Source of the DNA: a virus
IMG/VR virus record: IMGVR_UViG_3300008450_000004
Span: 52,882-116,881 of that record
Length of the DNA: 64,000 nt
Reading direction: 5' to 3' (one strand)
Position numbers and translations under genes: made by a program. A model generated the notes under the pieces. That model saw only the letters and a program-made list of their open reading frames with translations. It was not told the DNA's origin and searched no databases. Numbering within the stretch: position 1 is the stretch's first letter; each line of letters begins with the position of its first letter. Shown here in pieces: positions 20,093 through 44,585 of this stretch.

Positions 20093-20296
20093 ATGGTAAA
20101 AAAACGTAAAAAATGGATTCCACCAAAAGAGTTTATTGTAATAAGTGACGATGGTTATTTTGTTGGGTTACATAAGGGGGGTAAGTTTAAATGGTCATTT
20201 GAATTATCTGAAGCTAAACCACTTACCAACATCGAGCAATTTGATACAATAAAAAAAGGTTACATTGGCAAGGAAGTTTTATTAGATTTCATTTAA
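20093..20296 (+). CDS. Hypothetical protein, 67 aa
   Basis: Not recognised. A basic N-terminus (MVKKRKKWIPPKEFIVI), then FVGLHKGGKFKWSFELSEAKP. It resembles a small beta-rich protein. It follows its own predicted promoter with only about 6 nt of leader, and a terminator hairpin follows at 20311. Confidence 0.6.
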   Translation: MVKKRKKWIPPKEFIVISDDGYFVGLHKGGKFKWSFELSEAKPLTNIEQFDTIKKGYIGKEVLLDFI

Positions 20297-20310
20297 GAAT
20301 AAAAAAGATT

Positions 20311-20340
20311 AGGATCGTCAAGATCCTTTTCTTATCTTTA
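20311..20340 (+). promoter_or_regulatory. Combined terminator hairpin and promoter
   Basis: AGGATC / GATCCT stem (20311-20316, 20322-20327) with GTCAA as its loop, then TTTT. GTCAAG is followed after 10 nt by TATCTTTA (20333-20340), and the next ATG is at 20345. The same bases can end the upstream transcript and start the next one. Confidence 0.7.
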
Positions 20341-41603: not shown

Positions 41604-41999
41604 ATGAAAATAATTTTAGAACCACAAGAATCAGAAGAAATGTTCCACACTGCATTATGCAACGGATTGTCTTACATTTCAAGTCACGGCTTAACTTTAG
41701 AAGCAGATGAGCAAGACTATCAAGCCGCTAAGCAGAGCCTAAACTCAAAGAACCCCGATCGAGGAATCTGCTACGAGGATGTCTTATTAGAAGTACTCCG
41801 TATAGGTAAATCATTAACCCTAATCGATGAAGAAGGAGATGGCGATAATAATAGCACAATTAGTCTCTCAGATGTTCACGAGCGAGTATCTCAAACACCG
41901 ATAGACCATCTGACAAACATGATCACTGAAAACGATGATGCTGAAACTGCAGACGTAATTATTCAAACCGTATTTTATCAGGACATTATATTCGGATAA
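41604..41999 (+). CDS. Conserved phage protein, 131 aa
   Basis: MKIILEPQESEEMFHTALCNGL, then DRGICYEDVLLEVLRIGKSL and HERVSQTPIDHLTNMI, fits a small conserved phage protein family as I recall it. Higher GC and different codon use than neighbouring genes. No function known. Confidence 0.6.
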   Translation: MKIILEPQESEEMFHTALCNGLSYISSHGLTLEADEQDYQAAKQSLNSKNPDRGICYEDVLLEVLRIGKSLTLIDEEGDGDNNSTISLSDVHERVSQTPIDHLTNMITENDDAETADVIIQTVFYQDIIFG

Positions 42000-42023
42000 T
42001 TAAAACCTGCGATTTAAACGCTC

Positions 42024-42057
42024 GAGCGCATGCAAATACATAAGCATGCGCTCTTTT
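42024..42057 (+). terminator. Intrinsic terminator, perfect 10-bp stem
   Basis: GAGCGCATGC / GCATGCGCTC with a 10-nt loop, then TTTT. It ends the + strand block before the - strand RNA genes. Confidence 0.8.
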
Positions 42058-42480
42058 GTCTCTAGCGCATATGATCGCATGTATGCTAATGTAAAGCGAC
42101 ATTTACGCGAGCTAGCGCGAGCGATAAAAAAGAAACACCCGGATGTGAGGGAGTGAGGGGAGTACAGGCCCTAGCGGCCCGCTAGCGGATTGACAGCGGA
42201 ATGATCCCATACCACCCGCGATCCATGTGCGTGGCGGGATTGGCGCAAAATAAAATGTGACATATTCACAACTCGCACACGTCTTTTCGCCATCGACAAT
42301 ATATACATATATCCCAACTTTTTGCGTTTACATTTTCGGAATAACCCCTTTTGAGAAAACTTGCAGAATATCAAAGAACACTTTTAAACGAATTTTTTGC
42401 GTCGACAAAAGTATATACTAATATATTGGCATACCAGAGCAAGTTGGATTGATAGTATGCCCATTATAAAGATGACTATC
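42058..42480. other. GC-rich noncoding region with palindromes
   Basis: 423 bases without a convincing gene. It holds several palindromic GC segments (CTAGCG-GCC-CGCTAG near 42171-42185, GCGAGCTAGCGCGAGC near 42108-42123), in contrast to the AT-rich surroundings. The last 150 bases become AT-rich. It could be an origin, a packaging-type site or a recent insertion. No function can be assigned. Confidence 0.4.
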
Positions 42481-42485
42481 TTTTG

Positions 42486-42559
42486 CACGCCTGGGTGGAT
42501 TCGAACCACCAACACTCGGATTTGGAGTCCGATGCTCTACCAATTGGAGCTACAGACGC
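42486..42559 (-). tRNA. tRNA-Trp (CCA)
   Basis: Canonical cloverleaf on the - strand: acceptor GCGTCTG / CAGGCGT, D stem GCTC / GAGC, anticodon stem TCGGA / TCCGA with loop CTCCAAA (anticodon CCA), T stem GGTGG / CCACC. Variable loop of 5 nt. No encoded CCA end visible. Confidence 0.9.
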
Positions 42560-42676
42560 ATGTACGGGTCTTTCCCCGTTAGTCACCGCTCGCATTTTGC
42601 GCATCAACTTGGACTTGCTTCCAAAAAGCTTTTCCTCATATCTATTATAGCTGCAACCGCGGTTCTCACTACTCGT
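42560..42676. other. Spacer between RNA genes
   Basis: 117 bases with one clear hairpin (ACGGG / CCCGT at about 42563-42578) and no ORF. Likely leader or processing sequence of the RNA cluster. Confidence 0.3.
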
Positions 42677-42802
42677 AGTCAGGACAGGATTCGAACCTGT
42701 AACGCTTCCGCACTTCTGCGTTGATACCTTTTTTGTTTAATGTGAGGTTCGGACATACCTCATTACAGTTTTTTAGTGTCTAACCAATTCCACCACCTGA
42801 CT
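42677..42802 (-). ncRNA. tRNA-like gene 2, enlarged (126 nt)
   Basis: Minus-strand acceptor AGTCAGG / CCTGACT, T arm ACAGG-TTCGAAT-CCTGT, and a class II-like D arm (GTG-GAATTGGTTAGA-CAC). Between D and T arms lie about 76 nt instead of 33-36, with a TGAGGT / ACCTCA hairpin (loop ATGTCCGA) and a CGC / GCG stem. No normal anticodon arm with T at position 33 could be found. May be a tRNA with an insertion, or a tRNA mimic. Confidence 0.5.
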
Positions 42803-43087
42803 AACCATTAACTATACTCCTCAAGACATCATTTCTGATTTACTGCTAGAAGCCAGTCATTCATAGTTAATATTTACCCCACCTTGAGATTACTGGTAAG
42901 TAGTTATTTGGGTTTTCTATTTCTTAAAAACCTCCGAGGCATCCCTCATAAAAACATCCAACACTACTGGGAGAGATTGTGTCAGTCCCTTTATCCCAAG
43001 ACGTCCCACTCGCGCCGTAGACATTCTGCGAGTTCATTGTTTAAGTCTTGAACCAAAGACTCTGAGTACCTCTTACTCAATACGATT
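42803..43087. other. Noncoding spacer with hairpins
   Basis: 285 bases, no ORF. Small inverted repeats such as GAGG-GATG-CCTC (about 42936-42947) and GTCTT / AAGAC. Probably part of the transcribed tRNA-like region. Nothing more can be assigned. Confidence 0.3.
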
Positions 43088-43231
43088 TTAATCTACTTTG
43101 TGTATTTCATTAACTAATTGAATGAACATAGATTTTGTTATATATTCTTGTTTAACCCACATAAAAATTAAAGACATTTTTTCTTCATATGTTTTTTTAG
43201 ATTTTAATTTTTCAATGAGTTCTTTTATCAT
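43088..43231 (-). CDS. Small helical protein, 47 aa
   Basis: Minus strand, ATG at 43231. MIKELIEKLKSKKTYEEKMSL, then FMWVKQEYITKSMFIQLV: a charged two-helix protein. It begins 10 bp after the end of the secreted-protein gene, so it is the last of three minus-strand genes. Not recognised. Confidence 0.55.
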   Translation of the reverse strand: MIKELIEKLKSKKTYEEKMSLIFMWVKQEYITKSMFIQLVNEIHKVD

Positions 43232-43240
43232 AATATATTA

Positions 43241-43627
43241 TTATCTTAACCCCATAGTAACATACCAACAACCAAATTGGGAATCATACTCAATTTTGGC
43301 TATATACTTATCGTTGTAATACTTACCATCAGAGTATTTAGTATAACCAATTTTATATAAACTTTGTTCATAATCACTAAAACTAACATTTTTTAATGTA
43401 TATACATAAGCAGAGCAAATATTGTTTTTTGTAAAGTAATATACCTTATATTCTGACAATGTTGTTGCTGATAGATAATAATCACCATCTTTGTCATATC
43501 CTTCAGTAAGAATATAACCCCTTTTATCCATTTCACCTTTAATATCCCTAAAAGAATAACCAACAAAGTTCTGTGCTTGAGTTGATAATCCAATTACCAA
43601 CATCAAAAATAATAATAGTTTTTTCAT
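43241..43627 (-). CDS. Secreted protein, 128 aa
   Basis: Minus strand, ATG at 43627. Signal peptide LLLFLMLVIGLSTQA with probable cleavage before QNFVGYS. The mature part is aromatic and Lys-rich (GEMDKRGYILTEGYDKDGDYYLSAT). Bacteroidota-style secreted protein, not recognised. It lies in the tRNA region, away from the main gene direction. Confidence 0.7.
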   Translation of the reverse strand: MKKLLLFLMLVIGLSTQAQNFVGYSFRDIKGEMDKRGYILTEGYDKDGDYYLSATTLSEYKVYYFTKNNICSAYVYTLKNVSFSDYEQSLYKIGYTKYSDGKYYNDKYIAKIEYDSQFGCWYVTMGLR

Positions 43628-43644
43628 AATTTTAATTTTTTGTA

Positions 43645-43755
43645 TTATATTTTAATTAATTTACCACACTTATTACATTTATAATAGTCCATACCGATAA
43701 ACCATCCGATATGATTTTCATGCTTACAAAATAGCTGTTTAATAAACTTTATCAT
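43645..43755 (-). CDS. Small zinc-ribbon-like protein, 36 aa
   Basis: Minus strand, ATG at 43755. LFCKHENHIGWFIGMDYYKCNKCG has a Cys-x-His and a CxxC pair, as in small zinc ribbons. It is upstream of the secreted-protein gene. Confidence 0.6.
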   Translation of the reverse strand: MIKFIKQLFCKHENHIGWFIGMDYYKCNKCGKLIKI

Positions 43756-43768
43756 TTTACTTTTTCGA

Positions 43769-43856
43769 ACTCAGAGCGGGATTCGAACCCGCATCTCCTA
43801 TACCAATATAGGGCGTTACCAATTGTGGTATTCATTTCCACTTACGCCATCTGAGT
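43769..43856 (-). ncRNA. tRNA-like gene 3 with D-loop hairpin and abnormal anticodon loop (88 nt)
   Basis: Minus strand. Acceptor ACTCAGA / TCTGAGT, D stem GCGT / ACGC, T arm GCGGG-TTCGAAT-CCCGC. The D loop holds an extra hairpin (GTGG-AAATGAATA-CCAC). In place of the anticodon arm there is a perfect CCTATA-TTGG-TATAGG stem with a 4-nt loop, so no normal anticodon loop exists. Confidence 0.6.
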
Positions 43857-43976
43857 TTTTTACACCTTATTCTAATACCCTTTTATATCGGTGCAAACCT
43901 GCTTATCTATCAGGGACTAATAGGAATTTACTACTAGTTTGAATAATACGAGTTTTTCAAGGGTACAGGTTATTAT
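43857..43976. other. Spacer between RNA genes
   Basis: 120 bases, AT-rich, no ORF and no strong structure. Nothing to assign. Confidence 0.3.
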
Positions 43977-44063
43977 AGTCAGGACAGGATTCGAACCTGT
44001 ATTCAGGGACTTGGAGTAAATTCCCCCTCCGAGTTTGTATGGTAACCAACACACCACCTGACT
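43977..44063 (-). ncRNA. tRNA-like gene 4 (87 nt)
   Basis: Minus strand, same acceptor and T arm as gene 2. The D arm is short. In the anticodon position, AACTC-GGAGGGG-GAATT has one C-A mismatch and G at position 33 instead of T, so it should not decode normally. A variable arm of class II size follows. Confidence 0.5.
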
Positions 44064-44145
44064 GTAACACCGACGCCTTTACTTTCACGAGGACTTGCAT
44101 ATCTTTTTCAACATTTCTGTTTTAGGACTCCATCGGTATTTTTGC

Positions 44146-44240
44146 AGTCAGGACAGGATTCGAACCTGTACACTCCATTACAGAGTAACCCCATAGGTGA
44201 GTTATGTCCTCGAAAGCGTCTACCATTCCGCCACCTGACT
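44146..44240 (-). ncRNA. tRNA-like gene 5 (95 nt), possible CUA loop
   Basis: Minus strand, same acceptor and T arm. D stem GCG / CGC. A 12-nt segment separates the D arm from AACTC-ACCTATG-GGGTT, whose loop would place CUA at the anticodon but has C at position 33. Then a variable arm ACTC-TGTAATG-GAGT. Normal decoding is doubtful; an amber-reading role is only a possibility. Confidence 0.45.
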
Positions 44241-44378
44241 ATTTGATGAGGTTGGAGGTCTTAAAAATTTACCCATAAGTACTCATCACCTATTCTGCCC
44301 GATAGGACTTAACATTCATGAGAAGCCAAATTTCTCCAATGTCTGTTACTTTATTATTTGACATCAAGTAACCGCTGT
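44241..44378. other. Spacer between RNA genes
   Basis: 138 bases with a CCTAT / ATAGG hairpin near 44292-44309, no ORF. Probably part of the RNA transcript. Confidence 0.3.
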
Positions 44379-44538
44379 AGTTAGGACAGGATTCGAACCT
44401 GTACCACTTTCAGAGGAGCTGGCTTGCCTTTGGCTTCCCATGTTCTAGACCATGTTGCTCTGTGGTGTACTGTATCCAGCGTTTACCATTGTAAGCACAT
44501 ACTATTACTCTTTGTACTTGACATTCCGCTACCTAACT
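44379..44538 (-). ncRNA. tRNA-like gene 6, very enlarged (160 nt)
   Basis: Minus strand. Acceptor AGTTAGG / CCTAACT and the same T arm. D stem GCG / CGC, with an AAGTAC / GTGCTT hairpin inserted in the D loop. About 76 nt lie between the D and T arms, with a CATG / CATG hairpin and a CCAC..AGAG / CTCT..GTGG outer pairing. No recognisable anticodon. Confidence 0.5.
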
Positions 44539-44585
44539 TTTATAAACATAATATATTTTCTTTGACCTCCCAAATATTTATTAAT

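Follow-up and report, generated by a model that had tools for sequence, protein, structure and literature searches.

Phage RNAs with the top half of a tRNA and no anticodon arm in a probable stable-RNA cluster of a T4-like Bacteroidota phage

The minus strand of the window, as we call the whole 64,000-nt stretch of viral DNA that was analysed, carries five tRNA-like RNA genes (E1–E5) beside a canonical tRNA-Trp gene, which is the 3′ member of the cluster (Table 1). In each of the five the 7-bp acceptor is paired throughout and is accompanied by a D arm and by a 5-bp T arm whose loop is TTCGAAT, and E1–E5 and their relatives thus possess the upper half of a canonical tRNA (7-bp acceptor, 5-bp T arm with a TTCRANY loop, D arm with GG). 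A canonical anticodon arm, with a 5-bp stem, a 7-nt loop and U33 at the usual place, is present in none of the five. These observations bear out the original prediction of five minus-strand RNAs with normal ends and abnormal centres adjoining a normal tRNA-Trp, along with its details: the T arm and near-identical acceptor of E1, E2, E3 and E5, the hairpins in the D loops of E1 and E4 and the 4-nt central loop of E4. E5 exceeds a tRNA in length by about 50 nt.

Table 1. Features of the RNA cluster, in window coordinates
Feature	Position	Strand	Description
Promoter, Bacteroidota-type	44543..44574	-	TTTG-N20-TATGTTTA; stops 4 nt short of the E1 5′ end
E1	44378..44538	-	tRNA-like RNA, 161 nt
Spacer, E1-E2	44241..44377	-	no relative found outside this phage
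E2	44145..44240	-	tRNA-like RNA, 96 nt; acceptor AGTCAGG/CCTGACT; no anticodon arm
Recurring spacer RNA, E2-E3	44064..44144	-	closing helix AATACCGA/TCGGTGTT, AAGTCCT; homologues L050, L160, L165
E3	43976..44063	-	tRNA-like RNA, 88 nt; E2-type shell; centre rich in hairpins, contains AAGTCC
Recurring spacer RNA, E3-E4	43858..43975	-	homologues L017, L062, L087, L115, L154
E4	43768..43857	-	tRNA-like RNA, 90 nt
RNA class of about 210 nt without tRNA ends	42870..43082	-	starts GAGTAAGAGRTACTC; 22 loci (iterated nhmmer), next to tRNA-like elements
E5	42676..42802	-	tRNA-like RNA, 127 nt; E2-type shell; centre with hairpins
Recurring spacer RNA, E5-tRNA-Trp	42560..42675	-	homologue L105
tRNA-Trp (CCA), canonical	42486..42559	-	ARAGORN and Rfam (61 bits); 3′ member of the cluster

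E2, E3 and E5 have in common the acceptor AGTCAGG...CCTGACT and the T arm ACAGG-TTCGAAT-CCTGT, to which E2 adds a D arm of the tRNA-Leu type (GGCGGAATGGTAGACGC) and G at position 73. In E1, the same T arm accompanies a compensated acceptor, AGTTAGG/CCTAACT, together with A73, a long centre and a D-loop hairpin (GTACAAAGAGTAATAGTATGTGC). The centre of E5 is homologous to L091:1231-1317 (79% identity) and that of E2 is weakly similar to locus L041. E4 is built differently: its acceptor ACTCAGA...TCTGAGT extends to 8 bp with an outer A-T pair (AACTCAGA/TCTGAGTT) and is followed by a D-loop hairpin GUGG-(A/G)AAUGAAUA-CCAC, a 6-bp central hairpin with a short loop, a GAGAU linker and a T arm GCGGG/CCCGC. 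On the same strand, the interval separating E4 from E5 contains an ORF of 128 aa (window 43241-43627) that has a signal-peptide-like start and matches no Pfam family. Besides tRNA-Trp, the Rfam tRNA search places E2 (40 bits), E5 (33.8 bits) and E3 (32.8 bits) above cut-off and does not call E1 or E4; ARAGORN returns 'tRNA-???' for E2 and E4.

Chance resemblance is excluded, as a detector for acceptor, D arm and T arm gave 840 matches in the real loci and none in 40 shuffled loci. An assembly error is unlikely, since the same sequence is found without a difference in another IMG/VR record (L195), and a record from a different data set (L161) has E4 at 98% identity. In an Rfam search of the window stretch and 22 related loci, nothing but tRNA, tmRNA and a single group I intron scored above cut-off.

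The 20-nt 3′ end common to E1–E3 and E5 (GTTCGAATCCTGTCCTRACT) recurs in at least 120 IMG/VR stretches, with up to seven copies per stretch (L013). A matching 5′ end (AGTCAGGTGGCGGAATTGGTAGACGC) lies upstream of it, and the centre enclosed by this shell differs from copy to copy. Counts of family members from such pattern scans are lower bounds; as each class was collected with exact patterns, conservation within the pattern follows from the way the copies were chosen, and evidence comes only from the positions beyond it. Shell elements have a total length of 42 to 181 nt, and the 179 centres tested fall into 141 sequence clusters; no strong motif shared by every centre emerged from a k-mer search. 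A canonical anticodon arm is found in 1 of 195 distinct shell copies, compared with 277 of the 350 canonical tRNAs that these loci contain and with 0.3% of centres after shuffling. The single exception is a canonical tRNA-Lys(UUU) at L044:13031-13101 (minus strand), whose acceptor (AGTCAGG/CCTGACT) and T stem are those of the shells. A test for a split anticodon stem was failed by canonical tRNAs, its positive control, and was set aside.

This diversity of centres and lengths, together with the near-universal loss of the anticodon arm, tells against the earlier suggestion that the elements are tRNAs carrying removable insertions. Intron-interrupted genes spliced into ordinary tRNAs would explain the abnormal distance between D and T arms, and one related locus (L012) indeed contains a group I intron. 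However, some elements (42-71 nt) are shorter than a tRNA, 194 of 195 are without a canonical anticodon arm, the window has no Rfam intron-family match and intact canonical tRNAs adjoin the elements, and we consider splicing an extremely improbable explanation.

Because the shell search had fixed the acceptor, a second one used the D arm alone (TGGCGGAATGGTAGACGCTA). The anticodon arm is absent from 84 of its 86 distinct matches, all 84 having a closed 7-bp acceptor, and the two normal matches are tRNA-Leu(UAA). The acceptor is AGTCAGG in 58 of the 86; in the other 28 its sequence differs and still pairs. A73 is present in 180 of the 195 shells and in 72 of the 86 elements of the D-arm set, and A15-U48 is kept in 156 of 195 shells, 48 of 49 E4 copies and 44 of 44 class B copies (both classes are described below); U8, A14, A15-U48, G18G19 and A73 occur all together in 116 of 195 shells. 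When the whole collection was scanned for the shell 3′ end, the bacterial side yielded six bacterial species contigs, all of them MAG contigs and mostly of Bacteroidota, so the shell was not copied from a common host tRNA. The AGTCAGG shell is a tRNA-Leu derivative: it shares the D arm, A15-U48, A73 and the T arm with tRNA-Leu and differs from it in having no anticodon arm and a centre unrelated in sequence and length.

One reading of this likeness is that the RNAs are leucylated mimics of tRNA-Leu, the shell being charged by LeuRS and the Leu-RNA used outside decoding to donate the amino acid, to deplete leucine or EF-Tu, or to signal. Leucine identity in E. coli depends on A73 and the D/T core, whereas neither the anticodon nor the variable arm sets it, and charging can proceed without an anticodon arm (PMC9976931). 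Since the shells keep A73, A14, A15-U48 and G18G19, their leucylation has to be taken seriously, whether as a competing explanation or as an additional feature of this subset. It is also favoured by U8, the remaining leucine-acceptor feature of the shell family, by the identity of both canonical matches of the D-arm search and by the 27 canonical tRNAs of the same loci that have the shell D arm, of which the 12 listed carry leucine anticodons. Against it stand the four bases at position 73 and 35 acceptors of the E4 class and the G73 of every class B copy; G73 is a LeuRS antideterminant in E. coli tRNA-Ser (PMC9976931). The variety in E4 and the G73 of class B imply that leucylation cannot cover the whole family. 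A73 and A15-U48 are, moreover, common in other tRNAs, and as the explanation of these RNAs leucylation seems to us rather unlikely.

At least 67 contigs have the E4 D-loop motif (GTAAGTGGRAATGAATACCAC), nearly always within a closed tRNA-like element. Members of this class have an 8-bp acceptor, a D-loop hairpin, a short central hairpin, GAGAU and a T arm; the 49 distinct copies comprise 35 different acceptors, with A, T, G and C at position 73 in 25, 12, 7 and 5 copies, respectively. In 29 aligned copies, 95.6% of cells are paired (71.4% when shuffled) and both sides change in 19 of 27 pairs. Covariation across relatives, which the original prediction had named as a check, is strong, with a score of 0.718 compared with 0.230 for shuffled and at most 0.162 for slid alignments, and it sits in the acceptor, the T arm and the central hairpin. 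The eighth, outer acceptor pair shows 13 double changes and is thereby supported, giving a stack of 8 + 5 bp. The D-loop hairpin does not vary among copies, an invariance due in part to selection of the copies, as the search pattern fixed most of the hairpin.

The class has a divergent member in a cultured phage. With a model of the E4 class built here (R1; its E-values are rough), window E4 scores 100.3 bits and positions 20246-20331 of Flavobacterium phage immuto (NC_055915.1), annotated as tRNA-Cys, score 52.1 bits. The immuto element has an 8-bp acceptor, a D-loop hairpin, a GAUG linker and a T arm, and it is the differing sequence of its D-loop hairpin that makes it divergent. Among 296 Bacteroidota genomes the model matched only stretches of 73-76 nt, the best at 46.3 bits, which we read as host tRNAs. 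A blastn search of 50,697 GenBank phages with E4 gave short T-arm matches only.

A further class, B, of which no copy was seen in the window, is a tRNA-like RNA of about 157 nt in at least about 50 contigs (e.g. L091:835-992 and L197:5587-5744). It has a nearly invariant core (GGGTTGACCACAAAGCCGGC), a giant variable arm and, at the place of the anticodon arm, a 5-bp hairpin with a 7-nt loop, TCGTCTM, without U33; base 73 is G throughout and double changes are found in 24 of 43 pairs. Neither an Rfam match nor a blastn match among the 50,697 GenBank phages was seen for this class. Its D-loop hairpins (e.g. in L091, L200, L211, L219 and L226) have self-complementary tetraloops (GTAC, TATA, CTAG, AGCT) in 13 of 24 distinct cases, most of these being whole palindromes, which hints at kissing-loop homodimers; the count weakens the idea of a palindrome in every hairpin of the class.

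The loss of the anticodon arm might suggest decaying tRNA pseudogenes, but decay would erase both the strong covariation and the invariant motifs that persist in dozens of diverged contigs. For E4 and class B this reading is refuted by the covariation, and we give it hardly any credence for the family, although individual singletons could still be pseudogenes.

Comparison of the loci indicates that D-loop hairpins and centres combine freely. The E1 hairpin (CAAAGAGTAATRGTATGTG) is found in at least 26 viral contigs, always at the same D-loop site and with different centres, and the centres joined to it in L253, L254, L258 and L263 recur hairpin-free in L013. Some centres are found with different acceptors. 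Near-identical ends around so many unrelated centres, and the occurrence of one centre with and without the D-loop hairpin, would also be expected of DNA cassettes, in which the identical ends are recombination sites, the centres swapped cargo and the RNA secondary. This is very improbable given that acceptors vary freely so long as they remain paired, both in E4 and in the D-arm set, which shows that pairing in the RNA, rather than a site in the DNA, is under selection.

Several spacers recur as well (Table 1), which brings the number of RNA genes in the cluster to about ten. The 210-nt class has a weak consensus fold, for which RNAalifold supports short helices only. Beyond tRNA-Trp, at window 41995-42430 on the minus strand, lies a conserved, non-coding-looking region with G+C-rich inverted repeats and homologous DNA in L100, L155 and L129, whose GTTCTTTGA resembles a leader box ahead of the L013 array. 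Phage tmRNA genes are present in related RNA arrays (L012, L015, L078 and L140), and the group I intron of L012 adjoins its tmRNA.

The genome is that of a T4-like myovirus, with tail sheath, baseplate wedge, DnaB, PolB, RNR and GroEL genes, and the nearest cultured relative of its tail sheath is that of Flavobacterium phage immuto (47% over the full length). A promoter of the type found in front of E1 lies 2-12 nt upstream of 11 of 260 elements across the relatives, where 1.4 would be expected; these are a minority of elements. A canonical tRNA lies within 1 kb of 89 of 210 elements, in all 89 cases on the same strand, and only 13 of 326 elements fall mostly within an ORF of at least 80 aa. 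No genes for CCA enzymes were found in the phage records, and a search of these records for RNA ligase genes, run without a positive control, found none.

Selection keeps the tRNA top half and the class-specific lower domains of these RNAs: the top half is conserved and base-paired, the anticodon arm has been lost, and the domains recur in modular arrangement among tRNAs, some with promoters at the 5′ end. We think it probable that the window contains a cluster of stable RNAs belonging to a T4-like Bacteroidota phage and that E1–E5 are non-decoding RNAs in which the tRNA top half serves as a chassis for maturation and stability and the lower domains are the working part. RNase P, RNase Z and CCA-adding enzymes recognise the acceptor and elbow (PMC4810234), and RNase P also cleaves phage M3 RNA, the phage C4 antisense RNA and pre-tmRNA (PMC11143913), from which we infer that the top half is probably the chassis and the lower half the effector. 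In such a mechanism the acceptor stem, T arm and D arm would form the top half, with an elbow held by A15-U48 and contacts between G18G19 and the T loop. Host RNase P, tRNase Z or exonucleases, and the CCA-adding enzyme would excise each RNA from a common transcript and protect its ends, and the replaced lower half, with the D-loop hairpin in some classes, would act as an effector that differs by class. Transcription, processing and stability of the elements would follow by analogy from the action of enzymes that read the elbow, and the conservation of the lower domains suggests their effector role. In E4, where the acceptor and base 73 vary freely, charging would seem not to be required. Three points go against the chassis proposal: RNase P and other enzymes that read the elbow could be hindered by the D-loop hairpins of E1 and E4, a recognisable promoter precedes only a minority of elements, and the bias to one acceptor, AGTCAGG, exceeds the needs of a pure processing module.

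The term tRNA mimics, as used in the original prediction, thus holds structurally, the top half being intact and selected, but not for the decoding half, which is gone. Decoys for nucleases that cut tRNA anticodons, which had also been proposed, are unlikely because no anticodon loop is left to attack. Decoys could instead be directed at toxins or defence proteins that hit the acceptor/CCA end or the elbow, such as tRNA-pyrophosphorylating or nucleotidyl-transferring toxins: the attacked half is kept and the decoding half lost, and the many copies per phage and their rapid turnover fit an arms race. Such decoys require no conserved lower domain, however, and there is almost no variation in the D-loop hairpin of E4 or in the core of class B, which leaves this explanation improbable. 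Similarly, the elements may sequester processing enzymes, as had been suggested, but this would need no conserved, class-specific lower domains. Under the chassis proposal, the diversity and cassette-like swapping of the lower domains suggest an arms race with the host, waged by regulatory or counter-defence RNAs.

The statement in the original prediction that no such tRNAs were among those known was nearly right, the precedent in kind being species 1 RNA of T4 (RNA C, rnaC). This closest precedent is a stable phage RNA inside a tRNA cluster; it has a perfect 3′ T arm (CCGGG-TTCGAAT-CCCGG), and big hairpins replace the cloverleaf. To judge from the comparison, the likeness is one of kind and anatomy and not of homology: RNA C is present in a single copy per phage (710 phage records), its acceptor is imperfectly paired in the predicted fold, and it has neither sequence relation to the window RNAs nor a multi-class modular family. 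Among the matches listed, a blastn search of phages with the window cluster gave tRNA matches only, and the rnaC search gave enterobacterial T4-like phages only. We know of no function for the T4 stable RNAs C and D. The passage of PMC11143913 that cites Moen et al. refers to a 1978 catalogue of tRNA-like molecules of T-even phages.

Other known RNAs resemble the elements in part. The skipping-rope RNA (RF02924) shares with E4 an 8-bp closing stem, 2 nt, a D-like region, a hairpin, AGAU and a stacked 5-bp hairpin, but its model consensus lacks the TTCGAAT T loop and has only 17 nt at the D position, and E4 scores 21.5 bits against a gathering score of 36.7. GOLLD and ROOL, large RNAs of phages for which no function is known, are likewise located close to tRNA islands (PMC12286853), but are much longer and without a tRNA chassis, and neither has an Rfam match in the window. 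tmRNA has tRNA-like ends around a non-tRNA body; in the window the Rfam tmRNA model matched only a 17-nt fragment of the E4 T arm, at 15.8 bits against a cut-off of 47. An analogy for the chassis idea is provided by Murid herpesvirus 4 (MHV-68), in which the tRNA part serves the processing of attached small RNAs. This virus is eukaryotic and unrelated, and its payload lies outside the tRNA and not inside. Its viral tRNA-like sequences are mentioned, with reference to Bowden (1997), in a passage of PMC6409571.

The relatives across hundreds of other uncultured viruses point to a large, essentially undescribed viral RNA family that borrows the tRNA shape for another job; no description of such a family was found in open-access papers. 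In immuto and at many IMG/VR loci, annotations or gene calls label members of the family as tRNA-Cys, Leu, Tyr, Glu, Pyl and others. Since ARAGORN gives many of them spurious amino-acid names, the counts and types of tRNAs reported for uncultured phages are partly wrong. What was an oddity of the 1970s, the T4 RNAs C and D, becomes a problem open to wide comparison, for which there are sequences in the hundreds, invariant motifs, strong covariation and, in phage vB_FspM_immuto_2-6A with Flavobacterium sp. LMO8, a cultured phage-host pair. Tentatively, and with considerable doubt, one may imagine in phages of Bacteroidota a modular RNA effector system, in which a tRNA-Leu-derived chassis, matured and possibly leucylated, carries dozens of swapped domains deployed in arrays against the host. 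If true, this would be akin to an RNA counterpart of the anti-defence protein islands of phages, and if the lower domains act on the host, they would constitute an unexplored class of phage RNA effectors.
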